Source: Acanthochlamys bracteata (taxonomy: Eukaryota > Streptophyta > Magnoliopsida > Pandanales > Velloziaceae). From it: 64,000 nucleotides of DNA. A model generated the notes under the pieces. That model saw nothing but the letters and a program-made list of their open reading frames with translations. It ran no database searches and was not told the origin of the DNA. The position numbers and the translations under genes are program-made. The stretch covers positions 13,335,001 through 13,399,000 of the forward strand of contig CM034126.1 in NCBI GenBank assembly GCA_019914995.1. Reading direction: 5' to 3'. This document shows, in pieces, positions 4,567 through 22,701 of the stretch (positions within the stretch are counted from its first letter, which is position 1; the number at the start of each line of letters is the position of its first letter).

Positions 4567-7500
4567 ATGGAGATTGGTTGTGGGCTTGTGGGTATGGATG
4601 GTTTAGTTGGCCATATTGCTTCTTCTCAAGCTTTACCTTCTCCTTTCACTCGTCATGAACAGGTCACCAACAAGCAGCAGCAGCAACAAAGAGCTCTTCC
4701 TTATAGCTCTGTTTCTGCTGCTGCTTCTTTGAAACAGGGAAGAGTGACTGGCCAAGAAGAGCAAGATTGGAGATATCTGAAAATGGCTAGGACCTGTTCA
4801 ACCCCAGTAATCTTTCATGAGGGGGAACAGATGCTTAGCTTCTCTTCCTCTTCATCACCAACAAATGACTCCTCTGTAGCAACAACACTGCCTTACTACC
4901 AGCTCTCATCTGCCTCTCATTCTGCAGCAGCAGCAACAGCAGCTAGTTATTTGAAGACTGCAGGTTTAAAGATCAAACTTTTGGGTTTTTTTAATCTCAG
5001 TTGGTCTTGACCATTTTTCTGTTCCTTGCTTATCTTTTCTTTCTTGGTGAGATTTTAATGCTGCTTTTTTGTTGTTTTGGCTTAATGGTCCAACGTTGGA
5101 TCTCTGAGTTTTTTGGGGGATTGAAAGGGGTTTACAAACCATTGTTTCTTGACGGGTTTTCACTGTTGGATCTGTTGATGTTCTTTGTGGGGTGGGCTTT
5201 GAAAGGTTTTCTTCTAGATTACTTGGAAAATGGATATGGTCTGCTTGATTCCAGTAGTAACCGGTGAGTACGGTCTTTTCATGGTTTCTTTTTTTCTTTT
5301 CTGTTTTCTTCTTTGGGGTTTGGGGTCTTGTCAAGTAATAAAGTTGAGTTATTCTCTTTTGCTCCTCTCTGTGCAGTCTTGTCCGAAAAGTTGCTAGCTT
5401 CGACATAAGTCGGTTCGTTCTCTTATTTCTTATTGTCAAAAAGAAAAGTCTCTGAGGATCAAAACAGAACTTTGTTTCAGAACACATTTGATGCTAGTTC
5501 TGTTTGATCTTCGTTCTATTCAAGTGCTTTTTCCTATCTACGCAATGATTCTCTTACCAGTTTTTAATATAGCCTTTTTTCTCACGTTTGTACTACACTG
5601 TGTATGCTTGTTGCTGTCTTTTGTTTCTCTGATCTTGTATGGCTTCTGTTGCTATAGGAGTGAGTTCTGAGAGCACAAATGGGAACATGCATGGAGTTTT
5701 CTCAGGTGTGAGAGGACCTTTCACCCCATCACAGTGGATGGAGTTGGAGCATCAGGCCATGATCTACGGTTACATTGATGCAAATGCTCCAATACCGTCA
5801 AACTTGCTCATTCCATTCAGAAGAAGCCTCAGTGCTCCTGGCTTCTCCGCCTACTCCAATGGATCATTCAGATCCGGTGCATGTAAATCTCTCGCGCTTC
5901 TTTTTTAGTAATAGATTAGAATGATCAAGTTTGGTTTCCTGTTAAAATAATTTTCATGATTAGTACAAGTACATGCTTGTTTATTAACGGGCTTTTATCT
6001 GGATGGTTGTATTTGGACACTAGTTAACAATTTTCTTGATAAAAGAATCACAAATGATTTATCTAAATAGAATAGTTTGATATCTTGAACCACCTCCTAA
6101 GTTTGTCTAAAAATATTTTTAGTATTGTGTCTTAAACTGATATATTTTGGTATAGCTTCTTTGTTAAATATATTTTTAGAAAAGGGGAGAGTTTTGAGAA
6201 CTAGGGGCTCTGTAATCCAGTTTGTGGTTGTTAGACCGGAATAGAGACGGTTTATCCTGGAAACTTTGATTTTAGTATGGCTTATGTTGATTTTGGCATG
6301 GATGGGTGCAGTGGGGTGGGGATCTTTCCATCTGGGATTCTCTGGTAGTGCTGATCCAGAGCCCGGTAGATGCCGTCGAACAGACGGGAAAAAATGGCGG
6401 TGCTCAAGAGATGCAGTTGCCGATGGGAAGTACTGTGAGCGACACATGAACCGAGGCCGCCACCGTTCAAGAAAGCATGTGGAAGACCATACTGGCCATG
6501 CCGCGAAACCGATGCCTGTCATTGCACCTTCTCCATCAGCTTTGGCTGGCCCTGGCGGATCTTCTAACAATCCTACTATGTCACAACAGCAGGTGAAAAG
6601 CTTGCAGCTGAGTCATACTGATTGTTCCTCTCTTCAGTTCACCAGGTAAATTAATTCCATCTACTGCATACAAACAAGAATGATCTCTTGAACTGAAATT
6701 GTTCTTGAATTTGAATTGCTCATGAAGTTCAACATGTTGCGTCATTGAAGTATCTTATAATTTGTTATTATGTAGCTGGTAGAAGTTGCAAAAAGTTTCT
6801 GTTTGTCATCCACCAAGAAGATTGTTTTCTGCTATTTGGACCATGAAACAAGCCTACGGCTGTGTTCTTATCTAGCAATGAATTTGTTTGGTGACCTTTG
6901 CAGCATGTACTTCCTTGGTTGGTCAGTTTCCCGTAGTAAGTTCAGTTCTTAGATGGTCAATAAACTCATGCATGCTACGACAATATTATTTTGGATTGAT
7001 TTCTAATTTTTTCCAAAAAATAGCCAAAGTACTTTTCTATTCATCGAAGTTTTCACATAAATTGTCGTAAGAGGTTGTTGTCGTGATGTTGTTCCTTCAA
7101 AAACAAAAAAAAAAAAAAATGACGTAAAAAACTCTCTTTACTAAACTATGAAATAGTGACAGTTTAAGATTTCTCAAAATTGTTATTTTGGAGTGTGCTG
7201 TTGGCTGAAGAGAGGTGTTGATTAATTTGTGGGTTTGTATATTGAATCTTCACAAACATATGTATTTTGTAAGTTTGTAGTGCATCCTTTTCCTTATTAA
7301 GGTAGTTTGTCGGGTAATGTTAGAACTGAGCATTTACTACTTTGTCGTCAGTGAGACTGATTTCCTGCATTTATGTGCGTGCCTTTACCATGTACTATGT
7401 CGTCATAAGGATGCATCACTCGCTTAATAAAGTGTTTTGCAAGAAAGTCGTTACATGACATGTGTACTTGTTTTGTCTTCAACGTGATTCACTCTTAGAT

Positions 7501-9119
7501 TTGTTTACGTTTTTGTCCAAGTTTCTGATACTACCAACTTTTGACTTGCAATCTATTCTTGACACAAAATGTGTCAAGAGGACCAAAGGAAATTATAACA
7601 ATCTTCTGATTGTCTATTAGAGGAGGCGTAAAACAAAGTTAATGTTTAGGGTGGTATCTATTCAGTAATATACTTTCCAGTTTACTGCAACCATGCTGCT
7701 ATACATAGTAATTTCACTTGATTCGTGATATACCTTACCCCAAGTTTGTTTGGAAACTTAGAAGGAGTCCTTTTAATTTTTCCATGCTTTTACTTATGTA
7801 TTAGCTAGCATTCTGTTTGATTTTTGAGCATTCCTTGCATATTTATTGTTTGTGTGCAAATGAATGCGTAGAGGGGAATAAGATGTATTTCAATCATGAA
7901 TAAGTAAACCAATCAAGTAGAGGTGGCTGCCCATAGGGTATCTTTTGCAGCTTTCAGGTCATGGAGCAACCGTTTGAAGAAATAGCTCATGAACTGCTGA
8001 AAACATTTGCCTTGCTTCTTGTTGATGTTGTGCATTAAACCTTCTGAACTTTTGAGGATCACCTTTAATTAGTTATTCTTCGTGGGTTGAATTATTCAAA
8101 TGATTGAATTGTTTATTCCTGATTTTTTTTATAAGAGAAGCCTGATAATTAATTGTTCTCAGATATTTGCTTACATTTTAATTCAAGGTTTTCCTACATC
8201 TGCTACCTAAAATGCCAACTATTGAATTAACTTTTCATATTACTGCAAAGAGTATATATTCCATAAATATTCCAGGAGTATCTAATAGTAAATATATTAT
8301 AATTCTTTGTAAATGTCAAATGATTGGATTCTGTTTCTCCGTAGGTCCATCATGAGCAAAGATAATGTTGCCAACAACATGCAGGAATCTATGTGTCCAT
8401 CTGGACTGGCTAGTATCAGCTCTAAGTCAATGTTCCCGATCACCAAAGAGCAGCAAAGCATTACTTTACAGAGAAACACCGTACCAACTAATGTTGGTCT
8501 TATTTCTTCCAATTCCCTACTGAACACATCGAGAAACTCATACCATGAAAATATGAGCTTTGTTTCCTCTCTAGATGTCAATGACCGACGAATGCAATCC
8601 CATCATCTTCGTCATTTCATTGATGACTGGCCCAAAACCCTGGATCGTTCAACTATCAGCTGGCCTGACGATGGAACCCAGTCTGACCGAACACAACTCT
8701 CTATATCAATCCACATGGCCTCCTCCAATATCTCGTCCTCTTCATCCTCCGCGAATCAGGAGAAACTCACTCTTTCTCCACTCAAGCTATCCCGTGAATA
8801 TGACCCTATTCACATGGGTCTAGGAGTAGGGATTCTGAATGAAGGGGCAAGTAAGCAGGCAAGTTGGAATAATTATCCATGGGAAGGATCAATGGGTGGT
8901 CCTCTAGGAGAGGTTCTCAGTAATACTGCTAGCACTCCTAAAGACAATGGCAAGAACTGTTCATCATCATCACTGAACTTGTTAACTGATGGCTGGGATT
9001 TGAGTCCTCGTATGGAATCATCGCCTACTGGTGTTCTTCAAAAGACTGCGTTAGGTTCACTTTCTAGCAGCGCTGGAAGTAGCCCTAGAGCAGAACATTC
9101 GAAGGTGCATGAAATGTGA
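4567..9119 (+). CDS. GRF: Growth-regulating factor (GRF1/2-type transcription factor)
   Basis: Plant-specific transcription factor that promotes cell proliferation in leaves and meristems together with GIF co-activators. Exons: 4567-4963, 5658-5882, 6312-6645 and 8345-9119; they join in one frame of 576 residues. Exon 2 carries the QLQ domain ([20 protein letters not shown]), the GIF-binding module. Exon 3 carries the WRC domain, with its nuclear-signal/zinc pattern ([19 protein letters not shown], then [10 protein letters not shown]). Exon 4 has C-terminal motifs known from long GRFs: [18 protein letters not shown] and SSPTGVLQK. Exon 1 encodes a Gln run from CAG/CAA codons and Ser/Ala-rich stretches. 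The start is the first ATG of the frame. A miR396 site lies in exon 3. All introns are GT-AG; intron 3 is about 1.7 kb. Length and C-terminal motifs suggest the GRF1/GRF2 group, but the exact orthologue was not tested. Confidence 0.95.
6463..6484 (+). promoter_or_regulatory. miR396 target site in the GRF coding sequence
   Basis: The 22-base stretch encoding RSRKHVE just after the WRC domain pairs with miR396 along its length, with one unpaired target base (A at 6477) between miRNA positions 7 and 8. This single-base bulge is the known architecture of GRF sites. The bulged base here is A, giving a His codon, where Arabidopsis GRFs usually have C and a Pro codon. Pairing was done by hand against the remembered miR396 sequence. 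Confidence 0.85.
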
Positions 9120-10415
9120 TGACATACTTGGTTCAACAATTGTGAAACAGTCCACAATCCCCTTATTGTAGGTAATAACTGAGAGACTTGAAATTGCAAG
9201 CATGTTAAAGGCTTCCAACACTGTTGGGGGACAGAGTATGGTTTATGAAAACAACCAAATTCATGGTCAGTTTGAGTTCTTTGGTTTTAATTCATGTTTA
9301 TTTTGTGATATGTACTTGATAAGCCTGTGTCTATAGATTCTCATCTGTTAATTTTGCCGGTAGTCTGCTGCTTGTATTGGAGCAAACTCTTTGCATCCTT
9401 TTAATAAATAGACTTGTTAAATTACTATACTTTTGAATACTTTCCAATATGTTAAAATGCTTCCTCTGTTTTTCATTTTAGATTCGTGTCGAATCATCAG
9501 CGATATATATCTGGCCTATATAGTTTATATCATAAAATTCTTGAATGTGCTAATCTAGGCAAGTTTTTCAGTAGCACATGTACTATCAAAACTATGGCTT
9601 TCAGAATGTGGATGCATGTTATATATCTCATGTAGGTGAAACCTTCAACGCATAACTTGTTATCTCCCATTGCAATGTGTGCTACAGTTTCTGTTGTTCT
9701 ACTCGGAAACAAAAGCATCTTCTTCGTAATTGCCTGCAGTTGGTATTGAAACAGTTCTGCATGCTTGACTGTTACGACCGCTGTTAAAGTGCTGATCTCT
9801 TATTTTCTTGCAGAATGATAAACTGTTTGAAAGTTTTTGGATAGATTCCAACGTTTTTGGATTGATATCTAAATTCTATCACTCATAGAGGGAAGAGGAG
9901 TTTCTCTGACACGTCTATTAAGTTCTTTGACATTCGTATTCTTTGAATCTGTTATATGAAAAACACAAAAGGAAAATTATTTTCTCATTTATACATGATA
10001 CATAATGTACGTTCCAAGGGATTCACCAAATTTACATGCATCAAGCATCTTCAGTCGTTTTGCTGAGAATCTGTGCACGTGTATGATCCATCGGGCTATT
10101 ACAATCCAGTAATGATCGAGAAGAAGATTTACATATCCACAGTAGATTCCTGGCAAAAGTAGGGAAACGAGCAGCAAGTTATGTTTCGAACATTGAGTAT
10201 CTCGCGAGCCATTAAAGTTGGAGGTAGTTTCTGCCGAAAATTCTCAGGATAGTATAGAGCAGTATGGTAACAGATTGAAAGTAGGAAGTTGGGAAGCCAA
10301 AAATTTCGAAGAAGGATCCTATCAGCAGATAAACTCAATGCATGAATCTTTTATGCATGTATCTCCTACGACTGTGCCAAGAAGTGACACTGATAAGCGC
10401 ACACAACATACTCAC
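9120..10415. other. GRF 3' flank and intergenic spacer
   Basis: The first few hundred bases are presumably GRF 3' untranslated sequence; polyadenylation-like AATAAA variants occur near 9400-9410. The remainder has no supported coding exon. On the minus strand a short open stretch after an acceptor-like CTGATAG (about 10310) could be a last exon of the KIAA0930-like locus, but its product matches nothing recognised. Confidence 0.4.
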
Positions 10416-13400
10416 CTTAAATAGAAGGTCATGAGCAATATGCTCCCAGGGCAAAGATATGGACATCAAGCAGCACTTACGAGACAATTTCTGCATCAGA
10501 TTCTCGACGAGGAGATGTAGCAGAATAACTGTGCTTGGCTAACACTGAGGCAGTGGAAGCAGCTCTATGAGCTATTCTACCAAATCCCGTATCCCTCTTG
10601 GATGACAGCGGTGAAAGAGGACGTGACTTCTGATGGCTTTGGTCTAACAGGAAAAAATAAAAGATCAGCAGTGTAACTAATGTACTAGAGTGCACTCAAA
10701 TAGAGTCTAGCATGCGGGGGCAGAAAATTGGTATCCACTTGCAACATGAAGTTTTAGACATATAAGTGTTGAAAAAGAGCAATTAAAGATCAAGTGACTA
10801 ACATGTACCACCCAACAAAGATACTAGGTAGGAAAAACAGCATACAACAGAAATGATTCATCCAACACATAGAAGGAACATACTTAACTATCTATCTTGG
10901 CAAAAGGAAACAACTGAGAAACATACTGACTGGACCTCAAACAGTATAGGGGCTAATGATGACTTTTAAATGGCCATGCTTCTGGGAGTTTGGTTTATCA
11001 ACAGTTAATTGAGGACTCCTTTAAGAATAGCAAATGTTGCAACCATCCAACTTGGCCAAAGGAACACCACCAGTTCAATTGGCAATTGGCAATTGGCCAT
11101 CAACACAAAAGAAATAATACTATAGTTGTAGTTTAACACCCTTCATCCTAGCAAGAAAACCAAGACTTCGAGTTAAGAATGAGCGAACAGGGGATTACTA
11201 CCATAACAAAGCAAGAGCTTAAACATTCACAAAAAATAGATTACAGAAACACACCGGCAATTCCATATACAGCTACTTCAACTTCACCTCGTCCACCCGG
11301 GCCTCTCATGTGCAGCATGTCAGACTTATTATGAGCATTTCCAAGTGATAACAGACTACCAAATCTAGACTTTCCAGCTGCAGCAGAAGAGCACATGTAA
11401 GAAGTTGCTACATTTAGCATATCTTACAAAAGAAGAAAGCAAAAAATCTCAGATACTTTCTGGGAATTTCACTCTAAAATAAAATCATATTAATTCTCGC
11501 TTGAGTTTGAAACAAATAAACTGGCTACACTTTTGAGGCATCAATATAACTTCATGCAATTCACTAAAGAGCCTAAATTAAGGGATGATAAAACTTGCTG
11601 ATGTTTACTACATGAGGAGTTACCGAAATTAGCTGGTGCCACAAAAACAACACAGCACTAAAAGCTATTGTCGACATTGGACAAACCAAAATTTAAAGTA
11701 CTGCATTACTACATGAGTGAGAGACCAAAAACAGTCGAACTAGTCTCTCTAACTGGCCCTAAAATTAGAAACTGCAACATTCTCACAATTTGAAATTTAG
11801 CATTACCTTCAAAGGCCTCTCGAACCATCTGATAACTAACAAATCCTGAGAAAAGAGTCACCTGAAGATGACGTAAATGCGGATCTGATCAATCAATTCA
11901 ATTTTTTTACAGCATAAAACAGCAAACTAGCTGGTAACCCTTGCTTGATGATTCTAAAAAAGGAAACACAGCGATAAGATCAATTAGCAGTAATATATCA
12001 AAATAATGTGAATGTTAATGCAGATTGACCAGTGCAGTTTTTACAACTGTAAACGTAGCTTGTTTAAGTGATACATTATGAAAGAGAAATCAACAGCGAA
12101 CAAATAATTTGGTCAATCAACAGCAATATATCAGATAGTCAAAGTGCATGATCTCATAAAAAAGACCTTCTAAGTTGTTAACAATCAGTTTCTATTTAGC
12201 AATTTCTGAAGAGTACTGGTGTGATTAGATTCTCAGGAAGATAGTATAGGTTCATGATCAGGGAAATTTTGAAAATTTGAAATTCATGGATTGTAAAGTT
12301 GTAATAGTAAATTTCAAGACTTCCAACTAACCAGAAAATCCTTGAGCTGATTATAAGTAAGAAAAAGATTAAAAGTTACCATCCGTTAAATGATACAATA
12401 GTCTTGCATAGCTATAGCATTTTAAATATAAATATAATTATTAGATGTATAGGCACCACAAGTGCTGCCGAAGGACATTATAAGATTTTCAGGAAACACA
12501 TGCTTCATGGCAATCCGTAACATTTTCAATTGTCATAAAACTAGTCTTAACCGTTGGAGTTGGATGTAAGAAATTCATATTTGATGCTGAGGGAAAGCAT
12601 CTGCATGTAAACCAGATTTGCTCATCTCTTATTAAAGCAATTTAATTCAAGAAAGGGGAAAGAACAGACATATGAAGTTTGTACCTTTGGAAGATAAGCA
12701 GTCTTACGGAAATTATCATTTTTCAGGTTACCGGATGAACTACTAATCTTCTCCTGGAAAAGCTGCTCCACCATGTGCATTTAGAAGCACACAGTAGCAA
12801 TGATCTCTATCTGAAAGAACCTGTCAAAGTTGAAGACAGTATACATAGTATTACTATATGGCAGCATGTGCCAATAGTTGAAAGCAGACTGAGGAAGATT
12901 GACACACTAGCAACAACAAATGCATGCTAATGCAACTTAATGCATCAGAGACAGTAGAGGAAGCAGGAGAAAATTTTTTAGATAAGCATGTAGAAACAGA
13001 GTATAACTGATACATCAATATGTAGTAGTGTCTAAGGATGACAAGAACTTTACACAGCATTCAATTGTGTTGGTTCTTTCAGCCTACATTTGTTCTAAAA
13101 TGAAGTTGAAAGGATAAAGAATATGTAGAACAAAGTGCCTATACAGAAAGAAAGCCAAATTGTACTTACAACAGCACGAAAAGTATCATCGAAATCATCA
13201 ACCGCAAAACAAATATTTGGGTAGGAAGAAAGTGTCTCAACATCCTGTAGAGAATTTATAACTAAATAAGATTCATGACAATGACTAAACATCCAATTTC
13301 TATACCGCCAACCTTTTTGAAGTCCAGCTGAAAATTGACACGGTTAGGAGAGGCATAAACAGTCACTCAATATATAAACACATAAATTCTTCTTTTAGGC

Positions 13401-13867
13401 TAATTTCATATAAACAACCACCATGAACTCGTAAATATTAGCATCTAAAGCCCTTTTTTTCCCAGATATGCAATTAAGAATAAGATATTAGTAACATGGC
13501 CTTTCATATGACCGTATATGTATATGTAATATTATTAACAAAGACACTTCCGACTAAGATCGTGAGCCATAACAAGGTGCCACGAATTATGTCTGTTTAC
13601 TCATTAGAGCTAAATATACTTGCCTTACGAAATGCAACATACATGAATTCACAAGGAGCCTTGAAAAGTAAAAGGCAACTTCAATGGGCAAACACCAGCA
13701 ATGGACAAGAAAAGGGATCCAAGAACTATAACAAGCAAGTTTGGTATGCTAAATATTATGAGTTTTTTCATATAGCAGTTGGTGTAAGAAATTATAGTCA
13801 AGATACCTTGTAGATGGGAGAAAGTGAATTTTCTTCTCCAGTCTGATTTTTATAGAGGGCACTGGTG
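10416..13867 (-). pseudogene. KIAA0930/DUF2045-like gene with three one-base frame faults
   Basis: Seven exons can be read on the minus strand: 13807-13867, 13313-13365, 13170-13244, 12685-12820, 11807-11861, 11255-11377 and 10416-10643, all with AG acceptors and GT donors. The pieces are TSALYKNQTGEENSLSPIYK, VTVYASPNRVNFQLDFKK, YPNICFAVDDFDDTFRAV, VLSDRDHCYCVLLNAHGGAA, VTLFSGFVSYQMVREAFE, KSDMLHMRGPGGRGEVEVAV and CCLMSISLPWEHIAHDLLFK. They follow the order of human KIAA0930 (compare YPNIFFMIDSFEEVF and RMKGPQGKGHAEMAV). The frame breaks three times: at the first junction (one base short), in the 136-base exon 12685-12820 (one extra; an in-frame TAG follows AAFPGED), and in the last exon (one extra; TAA after AEIVS). 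The N-terminal third was not found. The family's function is unknown. An assembly error or unusual splicing remains possible. Confidence 0.6.
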
Positions 13868-16335
13868 CTACAGAATTTGTAAAAACAAAGGGAAAGGAGC
13901 AAAAGCAAAGGATTAGAATAGAAATAAATAGAGAGAAACAAGCAGCATACTCAACAACTAATCATCAGGAATAAAAGAAGCATCAGATAGGGATTATCAG
14001 ACAGGAAACAGTATCGAGTAACCTTATTGAGATGTAGTTTTTAACAGCTTTAACAGTTCTATGCATCTCAATATCCATAATTGCCAATAATGCTGAACTA
14101 TTCATGTTTGGTTTTATTGAACTAGGTAAGTTGTCCATCATCTAATTGAATTGACAATTCGTAATCTTCTGAAACAGAAAAAGTTATTGCAAGTTGCATT
14201 AATCCTTCCCTTCTCTTTCCAAGTTATCTTTATGGACTTAGCAATGAATTATAGCCAGTTGAACTTACATTTCTTAGCTTCTAGAACTGAAAGCACGTTA
14301 TAAATTTAGCAGATAATCCGCTGTGACGGCTAAGCTCTATTCCTTGCTATCTTCTGATAGATGTAGAAAGAAACATGACTTGTCGATTTCATGCCAAAAC
14401 TGTTCATGCCTAAGAAGTTGGAGTGCTTTTTCACCAAAATCAGTACTTCATGCCTAAACCATCAACAAATCCAGATTGATTAAAGAAAGAATATGAATTC
14501 AAAAAGACAAACATATAGTAAGGCTAACTTAAACAATTGAACTGCTCTTACAGAAAAGCCAGTATAGGAAAAAGTTTTAAAAATGAAGATCTATGAAGCA
14601 GCACAAATCCACACAGGACTAGATTCCCATGTTGAGGAGGAAAATACATGACACATTAGGAAAAAGGTAAAAGTCAGGCATAGATCACTCTCAAACATTC
14701 CATAAATACTTCAAACAGAAGAAAGTAAACAGTCAATTATGTCCATATCACGTTGATTTTAGAACAATCGACCTCCCTGATCTAAAACAATCAACTAGAA
14801 TTATTGTTCCTTTTGAGTTAGAAATGGCTCTTAATCAGGATTTAACATGTTGCATTACCTATGCATGATGATAAAATAATTGATAGAAATAGATCAAATC
14901 TCAAGTAACAATTCCTGACTTCCGATGCAGATTGTAGGTTTCATAGATGAAGCATTGCATTATACTCACTTAGCTACAATCAATTAGTAACAGAAACAGA
15001 CCAATACTAATTCACAGAGCACAAGTAGCTACACAAATTGAAATAAAAATCAAGCCAATATCTATACTTCTTTCTCAATATGCATACATGATCCATTATG
15101 CTCAAAGATAAAACTCGCAAAAAATGGGAGAAATTTCCTCTAAGCATCACTACCGTTGCTATATTGAAAATTTTCGACACTCATTACCACCAATAGCTAG
15201 CTATGTATATCATAGTAATAATAACAATAATAAAATTTAAAAAAAGCTTCCAGTGTTCTATAATTTATATGAACTTTTTTTTTTAATTTAGATTGAATTC
15301 ATAAGGAAAAGCTCTGGAAAAAATTAATAATAACAATATTAACGAGCCGATCATGACTCTTTTTTTTTAAGATTTTCTGGCATAATCTTGTTTTGTCGTT
15401 ATGAATTTGTTTGACTTTGTACATAATTTTTCAATTGAGAATGTATGAAATGATTATATAACTACAATGAATGTATTTACTATAGTTTAGAAGATTCATT
15501 ACATTTTCTTATATGCAAGTGGCTTGGTTTTAAATTAATTAGCATATACTAAAATATTTTTCCTTTTATATATTATAATGTATATGATTTAATAATTTTA
15601 TCGAAGATTAGTATTTGACTATTATAATTACACAAGAAAATTATTCTCTATTGATGAGGATGCCTTCATTATGAAGTCATGCAAGGTGGCGTATTTTTTA
15701 TAGTATAATGCAAGAGAATATAATGACTCAAGAAAAATCGTTTAGTCACCATAAAACTCATAAAATTTTGTTTATAATGGACTTAGTTGACATTAGTGTA
15801 GACAAAGTGAAAGTTTTTATAATGATATGTCCAACATGAATGAGGTAAAGAGTTCTCAAAGTACCTACAAATTTTGATTGAAGTAACACAAATAAATAAT
15901 AAGGAAGAATTTTACTACTTTTAAGGTGTGTTCATTTTATAGAAAGTAATTTTTGACAATCATGATTTTTAAAAAATGAGTTATAGAGAGTAGATCATTT
16001 GAAAAAAAAACAAAAAATTATTCGGAAGAAATCTTTTTATAAGAAAAACGTCACTTTTGGTGCAAAAGATCGCATCTTTAAAAAAAATAAAAAATTTTAT
16101 ATAAAGAAACGAAAAAAAGAACAAAAAAAAAAAATGCATAAGGGATTCAAACAAAAGGGAATTGAACCAAAAAATGTTATTAAATACTGTTTTAGTTTTT
16201 GGTCATTAATGGATGGCTCTTAAAGGTTACATAAAAATATAGCAAACAATGACTAGCCACATACAATTTGGTGGCTAAATATGAAAAACAATTATTTTTT
16301 TGTTGAGAATATTTCCATATATACTACTGCAAGTA
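13868..16335. other. Upstream flank of the KIAA0930-like locus and intergenic DNA
   Basis: No recognisable coding exon. A minus-strand open stretch at 14141-14023 begins with two ATGs, ends at an AAG|GT donor and would join in phase to the exon at 13867, but its product is not like the N-terminus of KIAA0930. 15.2-16.3 kb is very AT-rich, with Lys-rich spurious frames. Confidence 0.4.
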
Positions 16336-16612
16336 GGTGTTTGTAAACAATTTTCTCTCGCAAGATATTTAGTTACAAATAATTCATATATTTCGATTAC
16401 ATAAAAATATCAGAATTCTAATTTTATATACGGTACTGTTAATTTTTTTATTTGCACACTTTCCAATATAATTATATTTTTTAATTTTTAACTCATTTCT
16501 AAAAATTATTAAAACACAAATACTGAACTTCACTTCTATTTTATTTTTTAAAAAACTCTATGTCTTATTTTTTAACTTTACGAAACTCAGTTACGGACAT
16601 TTAAAACATGCT
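16336..16612. repeat. Dispersed inverted-repeat element, copy 1
   Basis: This segment matches 44467-44739 over most of its length, in the same orientation. Shared blocks include TTTCRATTACATAAAA, TTCCAATATAATTATATYTTT-like sequence and TTYACGAAACTCAG. The right end, reverse-complemented (GCATGTTTTAAATGTCCGTAA), resembles the left end of the other copy (GCGTGTTTCAAACATCCGTAA), which indicates terminal inverted repeats and hence a MITE-like element without coding capacity. Confidence 0.6.
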
Positions 16613-16992
16613 TTAATTATTATCAAAACCTTGACTTTGTTAACTATTAAAATATAAAATGTATGAAGAAAGAACATATTTTAATTATAAAAATTTCTAT
16701 TTACTTATTTCAAATTAATTATTATTATTTTATATATTTTAATTATTATTCAGAATTTTATTTTTACATTCATATCAAATTATAGTTTCATCAAAATTTA
16801 ACTCTAAAATTTACTTAATGCGTTTCAGTTACACTCCGAACTCTATTTCTATCGAATTTTATTTTTCACCAAATTTTATTTTTAAAAAAATTTACTTTGA
16901 TAAAAATTAATTTTATATAATTAAAATACAATTAGCTCTATATAATATTTGATTCATTTTGAGTAGACTTTCCTAAGTTCCAACACAACAGC

Positions 16993-17001
16993 TATTTAAA
17001 T
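16993..17001 (+). promoter_or_regulatory. Putative TATA box of the phytosulfokine gene
   Basis: TATTTAAAT lies 85 bases before the PSK start codon, leaving room for a leader of roughly 55-60 bases. It precedes a C-rich then TTCTTC-rich leader typical of small plant genes. Position and sequence are the only evidence. Confidence 0.45.
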
Positions 17002-17085
17002 CCCCCCTACAACTCAACATTCCCACACGTCTCCTTCTTTTTATCAGAACTCTTTTCTTCTTCGTTCCGTTTCTTCTCAACAAAA

Positions 17086-17439
17086 ATGTCCAAGAAAAGT
17101 GTTGCCTTTGTTCTTGCTCTTCTTCTCTTCATCTCACTCGCTCGTTCCGCTCGTCCGCCGCCGGCGAGCTCAAACCCAGCTGATGTAAGCAATATAAATT
17201 AACTCACGCAGCTTTTGATGAGTTTAATTAAGCTTTTGAATAAAAAAACATCTATTTGAGAGATTTTAGTCAGTTTTTTTGTTTTTTTGTTTGTTTGATA
17301 GGTGGTAGAGGAAGCAATGGATAATACTGATGAAATGGAAGAGAAGTGTGGAGAAGGTGATGAAGAGTGTTTCATGAGAAGAGAACTCAAGCAAGCTCAT
17401 ACTGATTATATCTACACAAACAATAAAACAAATCCATGA
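17086..17439 (+). CDS. PSK: Phytosulfokine precursor with variant core YIYTN
   Basis: Encodes a 78-residue secreted prepropeptide from two exons, 17086-17184 and 17302-17439, with a GT-AG intron in phase 0. Residues 1-22 form a signal peptide (MSKKSVAFVLALLLFISLAR). An acidic linker follows, then the PSK-family signature CGEGDEECFMRRELKQAHTD and the peptide core YIYTN, ending NKTNP. In the family, both tyrosines are sulfated by TPST in the Golgi, the preceding Asp being favourable, and subtilases release the pentapeptide, which binds PSKR-type LRR receptor kinases. The usual core is YIYTQ; here the fifth residue is Asn. Length, intron position, Cys pair and HTD context are all normal, so the gene looks functional. 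Family membership is secure; activity of the variant is inference. Confidence 0.92.
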
Positions 17440-20400
17440 AATTAAATCCATCTTCTGCTAGCTGCTCGCAGAAGACAATTACGAATGTTCAGAAACTCCC
17501 GTTTGTTAATTTGCTCGAGAACGTCCATCTATATATATATATATATATATATATATGATCAGAGAGTGCTTATGAGTGCTTTATAGAATATGAATACCTA
17601 TATATATGTTTGTTTTCATATATTTGTTCTTGTGTTTATCTACCAATCAATCTATCTATGAATGTATATGAGTAAGAGATGTTTGAAAGTATTAGAAACT
17701 TTTTTTAAATAAAATATATTTAAAAGATTTTTTTTAAAAATAAATAGATTTAAAAATAATAAAATTTTAAGATATAAAAATCGCACGCTAAATTCATTAG
17801 TTAAACTATAGTCACTCATTTGTAATGATCTCATCTAATACTCTATAGTCGGTTCACTAGAAAACAACAAGAGCACAATTAAAAAAGAATGCAATCACCA
17901 TCTTCCTCTTTCTCACTATTATCAGTTGACTTTTTCGCAATTTAATTAGACTTATTAGTTTATTGAGTGGTTTATCCGAGTCTAATTACAATTATTAAAT
18001 AAAGAAACATTTTTATTGTTGGACGTATTCATTTTGTAGATATGGAATGGATCATTGCACATTTAATCTTCTAGAGCAGAATTAATTTAATTTATTTTAC
18101 GCCCTTTCTAGTGAAATGTAGCATTATTTGGCAACGTATTTCGCAATAAATTATTTATTACAATTTTTTTATATTTTTCATGAAATTTTTACAATAACAT
18201 TAAAAAATTCAAAATTACAAACTATAATTAATTAGAAATTTTCTTTAAAATTTTAAAATAATTATATTCCAATTTTTTTATAAAGCACTTTCAAAGGTGT
18301 TTATATTGCACGCGTGTCTAGTTGCTTTTACCTGTATCTCGAAGTTCATACATGTATAATGACCGTAGTTCAACATATAATAGAACAAAATAGATTCTCA
18401 TGATCACATTAGTTGATAGTGAATGAAGTCAAATTTTGTTGTTTCGTTGTAGCATATCTATTTGTTCCTCAAGGTGGTTCTTACTAGTTCTTGGAGGTTC
18501 TAAGGCTGACTTCTTATTATAATTTATATATTTATTTGGCCAATTTACAAGATTTTTTTACTTTTTCAGCAAACTCATGTTTACTAGATAGAATTCCTTT
18601 GCTATAAGTTACCTTCTTTTATCAAAAAATTACTTTCAAATACAATTAAATACAAATTCTACTTTAGTATTTATCTCTAAATATTTTAAACATAAAAAAA
18701 TCAATCTATTTTTCAAGTTAGTTTTTAAACAATTACTTATTTAAAAATTTATCTTTCAAGAACTCACTTTACTACGACCGTATTATCGAATTAGGCTTAT
18801 GTTTGTCTTTTAATTATTGAAACATAAAGGTAGATCATATCAGAAATTTACAAGTGCGTGCTTGATGTTGACTTGTATGGGCTTGTGTCAATGCATTTGC
18901 ATTATATTAGAAAAAGTTAACAAAAGACACTTAACTCATTTGTGTAATTAAGATTAATTAACAATAACAACCATGATGAATCAATCATATTCATATGTTT
19001 GCAGTAGACAGAGCTAAGAAAGGGTTGCTAGTTTTCAATTATTAAAATCAGTAGTAAAATTTTGAAGTAAAGCTTTTGAAAAGTTGAGCCAACATTGATT
19101 CAAGAAATAGAAATATAGCATATAAACAAAAATAGAAATTGGAGGATTATGAATGTTTTGGTAGGGACTGGGTATGATATGAGTACAGATATGTCTACAC
19201 ATAATAATTCTGTTGTTTGATATAATAGTGGAAGTGCCACAAGCATCACTAAGAATTAGGCAATTTCAACTTTTTATTGACTTGCATGGGTGATGCTAAT
19301 AAAGGAATTGAACCAAAACAAAGGAAGCACAACACTCTTTGAACTCAACAAAAGTGATCGTGACAAGCACACAACTCGTTGGAAAAAAGAATGAAAAGAG
19401 TTTTTGAGAGACCTTGTGTTCTTCAAGTCTTTCAGGTCAATGTTTAAGAATCCACTGCAGTCTGCAATATGCAAGCACTGTTTTGTCAAAAGGTCATCTA
19501 AGCTAAAAACATGAAGCAAGAATCGACTCACCTGAGCTGACAGTTGCCAAACCTGGAACTAGTAATGTAAATTTGCATCTTTGATTTCTCTTGCCATTCG
19601 TAACACTTATTATTGCCAGGGCAACAGAGAACTCCTGCTACCGTGGTTCAATTCTTTGAGGTAGGAGATTCATGTTCTTCAACAAAAAGACTGACAAATT
19701 CTAGACACATATAGCATGGAACAATATACTCTTTCAAAAGGACCCGGCATGAAGTTGTAAGCCTGAGCACAATCAGGTACATGTTAACAATTCAAGCACA
19801 TAGACAGGCTGAGTACTAAATACATCAACAAGAAATTACAGTAAAGCACTTATACCCAAAAACATCGCATGTGCATATCAGAAGCCAAAGAAGCACCAGG
19901 AACAAGAGAGGAAATTTTGTACCAAAATTGAGAGCCAAGTAAATTACAAACGAATCTGCAAAACAGTCGCACAGATATCCCGCATGCGGGATTCTCTCAC
20001 AACAAACAGATAACAGATATTGCATATAGTAGTATCAGCTATCGTGCACAATAAACACATTCTCCCAGCATCATGCCAAAAATCGCTGAGTTGATATAAT
20101 TTTTAGTAAACTTCTGACTTTTGATACAGAGCAAGAGACAACAAAATGAGACCAAATGTTTGATAGAGGGAGGATGGAAGAGGAATTCCTTAAAGCAGAA
20201 ATTAAATTAAATCAGTAAACTCTCTGACCACATGAAATTTGATCAAGACTTGACATTTACAAGGCTCACATATGCTTTCTTGTAGCCAAGGATGCCTACT
20301 CTACTGTTGGAACGATGTTCCCCTCTTGGAAAAACATTTTAGAGATAAACCCTTGTGAAATAGAACAGAAAAAGAAAAGAAAGCTTCGAGATATCACAAT

Positions 20401-21519
20401 TCTAGCACACAAGCATGTTTATATAAAGAACATGCAAAAAAACACTGGCACATAAGGCGAATGCATAAATGCTTGGCTACTACTTTCTCAAGGTCTTGGA
20501 AAATCTAATAACAGGACGGATGCTAGAAGCTGCTGGCTTCCCACATTGATGGAATAGAACTCTCTAAGAAAAAATTGAATCGAAACTATAGAACTTAAAG
20601 CACAAGACTATTACTTATAGAAGTATATGAGCACGTGGTAGTTGGTACCATTAGAAACCACAGACATAGAAAACAGCTCGCATCAAATCTGTGTTTGTGT
20701 TTATGTGTATATGCATAATAAAAATTGATTTGAGAATTTGGTTGAACTATCCACATGAATATGCAAGAACAACAAAGGATTTGAGCTAGCTTTGACACTA
20801 CCCCAAAGATCCATTACATCTACATACACAGGATCACAAAACTTAAGATAGTTCAGAAAACTCCACTGTGAAATCTTTTTTAATTTCATAAAGTTTCATG
20901 GACACAATTTGCAGTTTAGTCAAATAGTAAATAGAGGTTGTTGCTTGGTTCTGCAATTCAGGGTTTAGAATCAATTGCACAAACAGTCAAGTAGCTATTT
21001 TTGTCTTGAAGTCATTGCCAACTGTTTCAAATGGGATTAGCTTTCTTATAATTCAGCAGCACAAACATAACACGCTTTGGAAAGTAATGGAAACCTTGAC
21101 TATGCAATGAATTAAAGCAAGAATATTAATATCGATTGAAGGTAATGAAGAGATCCTTCGCGGGGAACTTGAAGAATTACTATTTGTTAAAATGTTTTTC
21201 TGTATCATGCCACTTTTCCTTTAACAATTTGATCACAATTCTACAAGTATAGCAACTAATAATCATCCAAAAATGCAACTTTTAAGAAAATGTTTCTCCT
21301 CCGACTATCATCTGAATAAATAGCTCACAACAACATATCACACAAAAAAGAATTGATCTTTTTTTTTTATGTCGTATTGTTTAAATAGTATGTAGACACA
21401 CATCAACACATTCAAGAAGATTCTTTCCCTTTTGACTATCACATATGCAAGCACTAGGAGTAAGAAATCTTACACAATCCCGTGGAACAAATTCGTTTTG
21501 CAGGAATACCAAACCAAAC
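17440..21519. other. Intergenic region, possibly with non-coding transcript exons
   Basis: Just after the PSK stop there is a TA microsatellite (17529-17556). A block with MITE-like AT core lies at about 17680-17800. From 19.2 to 21.5 kb the DNA is less AT-rich and shows minus-strand splice-like signals (a CAG|GTGAGT-type donor at about 19532-19535). These could be 3' untranslated exons of the gene at 21520-22701 or a non-coding RNA. No protein in the region is recognisable. Confidence 0.35.
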
Positions 21520-22701
21520 CTAAGCTGGAATCAGAAACCTCGTCCCAACCAACACATGCATGCACAATGTCAAACACATTGTAACAATCACCCTTGACTT
21601 TGCACTAACATATCGTAAGAGATCCAAGCCCCTCTCCAGCACTTCCTTGTGAACAACCTTGACACTACTGCTTGCTCCATCATAAAGCCTTGACAGCAGG
21701 AATTGTAGGAACGACCTCACTGTCTCAAAAGTCACTCTCCCTGTCACATCTAAGACAAACTTTCTATTGCTAGGAACAGCCAATGTGGATGACACATGCC
21801 TGACCCAACCACCACAAGCACAAACCTTCCTAGCAAGTAAGCTCGCATCTTGCCTATTATCTGCTTCCTCTCCCTTATCATCCTCACCAACATCATTTAC
21901 TTTGTTCATGGAGGAACCCGAACGGGAAGTAGAGATCACAGAATGGGAAGTCTTCACCAATGTCTCAATTGCCCCATTGCAAACTGAAACAAGGATCTCC
22001 TTCATTTTCTCCTCGTGTTTCGGGTTAGTCAGCCCCTCAAACAGCTCACTGTACCCATTAAACCCTCTAGTCCTCTCAAGAAAGACAGTGACTGCAGCGG
22101 TAGTGAACCTCTGTGTGCAGTCACCTATAAGCTGTCTGCAGTCATCAGCACAAATTACCCGCACCCACTTTGGCACAACCTCATCAGGCGATTGAGCTGC
22201 AGCCTTCAAGTAGAAACCAATTACTAAACTCCTAGCAAAGCTGCCTACAACAACAGAGGCAAACCCAGTGCCTTGTTCAGAGAAAAACTTATCAATAACC
22301 ATCTCTGCAAACGAGCCAGGATCCGACCCAGAATTGCAGAGAGCTTGAGAGACCCCAACTACGATCGATTCAGAAAGCTTGGAAGCTGAATTTTGGATTT
22401 CGGATGAAGCAGCCAGCTTAGCAAGCTGCTTGAGGGATCGGGGAATGTCATCGCTATCAGAACGAAGGAATGCAGCCAAATCAGACGACACTAGAGCAAA
22501 AGCATCCGCAGAAACCACAACAGCAGAAGAGAGGGAAGAGAGTGCTCGGAGGACAGAAATAACACAACGACGACGATTTACGTAAGGATGTTGGTAGAAA
22601 CGGTAGACGGAGTACCCAGTAGCAGCAGCACCGGCGGCGGCGAAGAGAAAGAACCAACGGCGACGGCGGCGCCTGAGGAAGAGAGGTAAATCCATGATCA
22701 T
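21520..22701 (-). CDS. Unrecognised 393-residue membrane-anchored plant protein
   Basis: Single uninterrupted frame, here started at the first ATG (22701); a second ATG two codons later is equally possible. The N-terminus is MDLPLF, then a basic run (RRRRRR), then a hydrophobic segment FFLFAAAGAAATGYSVYRFY (about 17-36) that should span a membrane or act as an anchor. The middle is helical and Ser/Ala-rich, with FFSEQGTGFASVVVGSFARS (about 139-158). A second hydrophobic stretch, VIVTMCLTLCMHVLVGTRFL (about 371-390), ends at IPA, like a C-terminal anchor. No catalytic motif was seen. Codon use and length are those of a real gene. The layout suggests a plant-specific family of unknown function, but I cannot name it. 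A GA repeat sits in the leader and two E2F-like sites lie upstream. Confidence 0.85.
   Translation of the reverse strand: MIMDLPLFLRRRRRRWFFLFAAAGAAATGYSVYRFYQHPYVNRRRCVISVLRALSSLSSAVVVSADAFALVSSDLAAFLRSDSDDIPRSLKQLAKLAASSEIQNSASKLSESIVVGVSQALCNSGSDPGSFAEMVIDKFFSEQGTGFASVVVGSFARSLVIGFYLKAAAQSPDEVVPKWVRVICADDCRQLIGDCTQRFTTAAVTVFLERTRGFNGYSELFEGLTNPKHEEKMKEILVSVCNGAIETLVKTSHSVISTSRSGSSMNKVNDVGEDDKGEEADNRQDASLLARKVCACGGWVRHVSSTLAVPSNRKFVLDVTGRVTFETVRSFLQFLLSRLYDGASSSVKVVHKEVLERGLDLLRYVSAKSRVIVTMCLTLCMHVLVGTRFLIPA

Follow-up and report, generated by a model that had tools for sequence, protein, structure and literature searches.

The window, a stretch of 64,000 nucleotides on contig C1 of the assembly, carries a two-exon phytosulfokine (PSK) precursor gene, whose coding parts (17086–17184 and 17302–17439) encode a spliced product of 78 residues. 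The coding part of exon 1 starts with the ATG at 17086, stops short of the GT donor at 17185 and translates to MSKKSVAFVLALLLFISLARSARPPPASSNPAD, giving the precursor an N-terminus that is hydrophobic as judged by eye. Exon 2 forms an open frame of 45 codons followed by the stop codon TGA, with the translation VVEEAMDNTDEMEEKCGEGDEECFMRRELKQAHTDYIYTNNKTNP, and ends in HTD-YIYTN-NKTNP, placing the pentapeptide YIYTN five residues ahead of the stop, with an aspartate at position -1, in the C-terminal location characteristic of the PSK family. The spliced protein matches the Pfam PSK profile (PF06404) at 55.9 bits, against a cut-off of 25. Together, translation, two-exon structure and family match bear out the preliminary description of a PSK precursor that is ordinary apart from its YIYTN core, and the translation of 17302–17439 likewise confirms the residues that it had placed before (HTD) and after (NKTNP) this core. 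The positions of the individual features are listed in Table 1.

Table 1. Features of the PSK precursor gene, in window coordinates.
Feature	Position	Strand	Basis
TATA-like box TATTTAAA, conserved in the C2 copy	16993–17000	+	Reading and alignment of the two upstream stretches; putative function
Coding part of exon 1 (33 residues), with start codon and signal-peptide-like N-terminus	17086–17184	+	Translation; donor site
Intron: 117 bases, phase 0, GT...AG; intron at the same place in the C2 copy	17185–17301	+	Splice-site reading
Coding part of exon 2, including the stop codon	17302–17439	+	Translation; Pfam match; gene structure
Asp at -1 of the pentapeptide: conserved residue, described in tomato as needed for cleavage by SlPhyt2 (phytaspase)	17404–17406	+	Sequence; role as described in PMC10796568
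Pentapeptide YIYTN, TATATCTACACAAAC	17407–17421	+	Sequence, common to the C2 copy

In this AT-rich genome, a 15-base degenerate motif for YIYTN yields 376 + 345 matches (721), compared with 211 + 218 (429) for the same pattern written backwards. Because the bare motif is so common, it was not used as evidence; what counts for the gene is instead its structure, its match to the PSK family and the existence of a conserved second copy, which together allow a chance motif to be set aside. On these sequence grounds, the window holds a genuine PSK gene that is conserved and whose pentapeptide, though known, is unusual. A weak Pfam match to conotoxin (15.1 bits, cut-off 25.1) was disregarded, an Rfam search of the window gave no match, and a repeat search near the gene returned mostly AT repeats.

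The second YIYTN gene lies on contig C2, with exon 2 at 12832455–12832586 and the same TATATCTACACAAAC core. The two proteins are identical at 62 of 76 aligned residues, including the ten residues immediately ahead of the core, LKQAHTDYIYTN. After the core, the window copy (NNKTNP) displays an N-glycosylation-type sequon, N-K-T (17422–17433), that is absent from the C2 copy (NSKNP). Divergence between the pair amounts to dN 0.086 and dS 0.336 by the NG86 method and to dN 0.091 and dS 0.309 by YN00, corresponding to a dN/dS of about 0.26–0.29, a value that, for a single pair of such short genes, speaks for constraint only moderately. Both copies have undamaged reading frames and splice sites, and dN/dS stays below 0.3, so a pseudogene is not supported.

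The similarity extends well beyond the gene itself. A 23 kb segment of C2 (12817000–12840000) is collinear with window positions 4700–21650 over coding and non-coding sequence alike, the non-coding identity being about 67–86%, and a few extra C2 matches to window positions 36–50 kb, together with out-of-order ones near 16.4 kb, are suggestive of dispersed repeats. The upstream neighbour of the PSK gene (5633–6646, with open reading frames to 9116) contains QLQ (52.7 bits) and WRC (74.1 bits) Pfam domains, which suggests a transcription factor gene of the growth-regulating-factor (GRF) type; this GRF-like neighbour also has a copy in the C2 block. The C1/C2 block, together with a dS of about 0.3 for the PSK pair, suggests a whole-genome duplication of fairly recent date. 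The event is taken as genome-wide because further paired copies accompany the block, namely PSK genes on C4/C6 and C5/C3 and receptor genes on C5/C3 and C1/C2. The window and C2 genes are accordingly read as a probable whole-genome-duplication pair, in which the YIYTN form would have been fixed before the duplication.

The assembly searched comprises 195,520,810 bases in 557 contigs. The first twenty contigs span 6.4–14.9 Mb, the ten contigs read among the 537 later ones measure 10,260–64,070 bases, and C426 reaches at least 66,620; since C1–C20 are chromosome-sized and the later contigs read are tiny, n = 20 is likely. The family search of the genome reveals seven PSK loci, all seven first-look candidates having been scored, of which six exceed the Pfam cut-off and the seventh (C3:6897515) falls just below it at 22.3 bits. 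The YIYTN core occurs at two loci, C1 (the window) and C2, whereas the remaining five (C4, C6, C5 and two on C3) encode YIYTQ, that is, PSK-alpha. YIYTN is a minority form within this genome; the preliminary description had envisaged that it might be the common form across the whole family. The two kinds of gene are alike in family, in the C-terminal position of the core and in the Asp preceding it, which is present at all seven loci; the two-exon layout, as a further likeness to PSK-alpha precursors, was checked in the window and C2 genes. They differ in the fifth residue, Gln against Asn, and the YIYTN pair shares 27–31 of 74–76 aligned residues with the C4/C6 YIYTQ pair. Between themselves, the C4 and C6 proteins are identical at 54 of 76 residues, and the C5 and first C3 proteins at 21 of 31, the latter count covering exon 2 pieces trimmed by eye.

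YIYTN is known as PSK-delta, a peptide from Medicago nodules that is termed legume-specific in PMC9662189 and PMC10796568; the latter describes its detection in nodules by LC-MS and its promotion of nodulation. The preliminary description mentioned variant PSKs from legumes and was unsure whether this exact pentapeptide had been described; it is in fact a described legume variant (PMC9662189, PMC10796568). By published description, legume PSK-delta and the window gene share the pentapeptide, a precursor of about 80 residues and the Asp before the core, and the window gene thus has the core by which PSK-delta is defined (PMC10796568, PMC9662189). They differ in setting, PSK-delta being reported as legume-specific and nodule-associated whereas the window gene resides in a probably monocot genome; this discrepancy counts against the published distribution, not against the core. 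Legume PSK-epsilon (YVYTN) likewise has Asn at the fifth residue, with Val in place of the Ile found at the second residue of the window core, and is described in PMC9662189 from legumes only. As summarized in PMC11942274, gamma, delta and epsilon PSK genes are known mostly in legumes, maize genes belong mainly to the alpha clade, and all tea PSK genes surveyed are YIYTQ or alpha-clade; the motif in Arabidopsis is given as YIYTQ/H in PMC10489974. No report of YIYTN outside legumes was found in the open-access literature searched.

The lineage of the genome was assessed from plastid-like stretches and from protein comparisons. Four stretches on small contigs (L081, L082, L083 and L085) were examined, drawn from the five best of 42 ribosomal S19 matches, with L084 on chromosome C6 left out. 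In all four, trnH-GUG adjoins rps19; L081 displays the order rpl2–trnH–rps19–rpl22, its L2 and L22 proteins being confirmed by Pfam. Plastid rpl22 is lost in legumes, and the gene is kept in all four stretches (Pfam L22 in L081, L083 and L085; by eye in L082). Monocot inverted repeats generally hold the trnH–rps19 cluster, unlike those of most non-monocots, with Winteraceae described as an exception (Wang et al. 2008, PMC2275221), and trnH duplication is named for Elaeagnaceae too (PMC4579063). Across the whole assembly, S19 matches, some of them on chromosomes, are accompanied by 44 RuBisCO large-subunit matches, and unplaced contigs (C220, C350, C304, C172, C277, C324 and C426 among them) contain numerous plastid-like gene copies that are partly broken.

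The protein comparisons consist of similarity scores, not trees, against PDB chains. For an rbcL fragment, rice (552.4 bits) and wheat (549.3) precede Arabidopsis (537.1) and pea (536.8), and for the C-terminal half of an 11S globulin, coconut (280.8 and 277.2) precedes amaranth (254.1), almond prunin (233.3), pumpkin (219.2) and the glycinins (at most 188.2). Chalcone synthase (sorghum 647.7, Arabidopsis 640.0, rice 638.2, soybean 634.8, alfalfa 607.2) does not separate monocots from dicots, while for Lhca3 and Lhca4 dicot chains (pea 427.9 and 334.8) stand ahead of maize (418.3 and 322.1) or barley, and for CP24 pea is highest (382.0), followed by Arabidopsis (373.1) and spinach (370.6); grass chains may score low because grass proteins are divergent. 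The comparison of the 51-kDa complex I protein (crucifer chain 1051.7, mung bean 1022.6) is weak because the matched stretches differ in length. A globin search of the genome gave no match, an uninformative outcome given that plant globin genes are split into short exons, and a squash-inhibitor search gave none either, a weak result in that control genomes also returned none. Collectively, rpl22, the rpl2–trnH–rps19 order, rbcL and the 11S globulin indicate that the genome is very probably not that of a legume and is probably that of a monocot, CHS, Lhca3, Lhca4 and CP24 being undecided or opposed on the latter point.

The novelty at this locus is the occurrence of a known pentapeptide outside legumes, where the searched literature excludes it. 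With the same pentapeptide in legumes and in a probable monocot, the earlier suggestion of a lineage-specific peptide hormone loses its support as worded. The presence of a conserved pair of YIYTN genes in what is probably a monocot implies that the pentapeptide is bound neither to legumes nor to nodules. A PSK-delta role therefore merits testing outside symbiosis, and the legume-only statement merits rechecking across flowering plants. The finding corrects a claim of distribution, but neither the peptide nor its likely mode of action is new.

With regard to function, the gene quite probably is a functional PSK precursor gene encoding a PSK-delta-type YIYTN peptide in a non-legume, probably monocot genome. 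The precursor would enter the secretory pathway, TPST would sulfate both tyrosines of YIYTN, a phytaspase-like subtilase would cut after Asp(-1), and other proteases would trim the tail that follows the core. A cut of the AtSBT3.8 type is described for a single Arabidopsis precursor with Asp after the core (PMC10796568) and is not expected here, where Asn or Ser follows the core. Cleavage by an asparaginyl endopeptidase after the new Asn is a speculation. The disulfated peptide would signal through PSKR1-type receptors together with SERK co-receptors and act mostly like PSK-alpha; similar activity of YIYTN and YIYTQ is expected given that a redundancy between PSK-alpha and PSK-delta has been described for Medicago, which has a single known receptor gene (PMC10796568).

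Candidate receptors are encoded in the same genome. Within the loci retrieved by a PSKR1 query there are five intact open reading frames, L088–L092 (on C6, C5, C1, C2 and C3, respectively), each a long frame without an intron, encoding 1058–1073 residues at 55–61% identity, while the next match drops to 41%. Comparison with the PDB, covering L090 and L088, gives phytosulfokine receptor 1 as the best match for both, at 374.1 bits (against 319.1 for GSO1) and 392.3 bits (against 346.3), respectively. L089 and L092 are 85.7% identical and L090 and L091 82.7%, and both pairs keep an EFPFF/DFPFF-(S/I)(K/R)RN island segment. L088 is about 50–52% identical to the other four, with the island segment SVPLYVKRN; it is perhaps a PSKR2- or PSY1R-type receptor, neither type being among the PDB matches listed.

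Alternatively, YIYTN could be merely tolerated and have no distinct role, with two drifting copies that duplicate the action of the five YIYTQ genes or act more weakly than they do. The prevalence of YIYTQ (five of seven loci) and the redundancy described in Medicago (PMC10796568) favour such a view, but both YIYTN copies are intact, share the core and the ten residues preceding it, retain identical core codons and show the low dN/dS given above, making mere tolerance somewhat unlikely. A greater age of YIYTN, with PSK-delta-type precursors dating back to the common ancestor of legumes and monocots and lost or overlooked elsewhere, is more doubtful still. The legume-only statement apparently derives from searches of legume genomes and a tree of Arabidopsis and three legumes, described in PMC9662189 for PSK-epsilon, which leaves room for overlooked genes; against this, the surveys cited above give YIYTQ or alpha-clade genes in tea and maize (PMC11942274) and YIYTQ/H in Arabidopsis (PMC10489974). 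A further, equally improbable extension of the preferred reading, a functional PSK-delta-type gene, would have PSK-delta arise in parallel in a non-nodulating monocot lineage, become fixed before the whole-genome duplication and be kept in both copies by selection. The change from Gln to Asn would then be the functional point, acting through asparaginyl endopeptidase release of the C-terminus or through tuning to one of the two duplicated PSKR-type receptor pairs, and the common role of PSK-delta would lie in growth, not symbiosis. The natural Gln/Asn swap makes it possible to ask cleanly what the fifth residue contributes to receptor binding and to processing at the C-terminus, the two properties that the preliminary description thought it could alter.

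An error of sequencing or assembly in the fifth codon, raised in the preliminary description, is hardly credible, because two positions separate the Gln codons (CAA, CAG) from the Asn codons (AAC, AAT), more than a single wrong base could change, and because the separate C2 locus, with 14 of 76 residues different, has identical core codons including AAC at the fifth. Deletion of a codon as a route to Asn was likewise rejected and is not required, since the tails after the core are similar in length in YIYTN and YIYTQ genes, measuring four to five residues at all seven loci.
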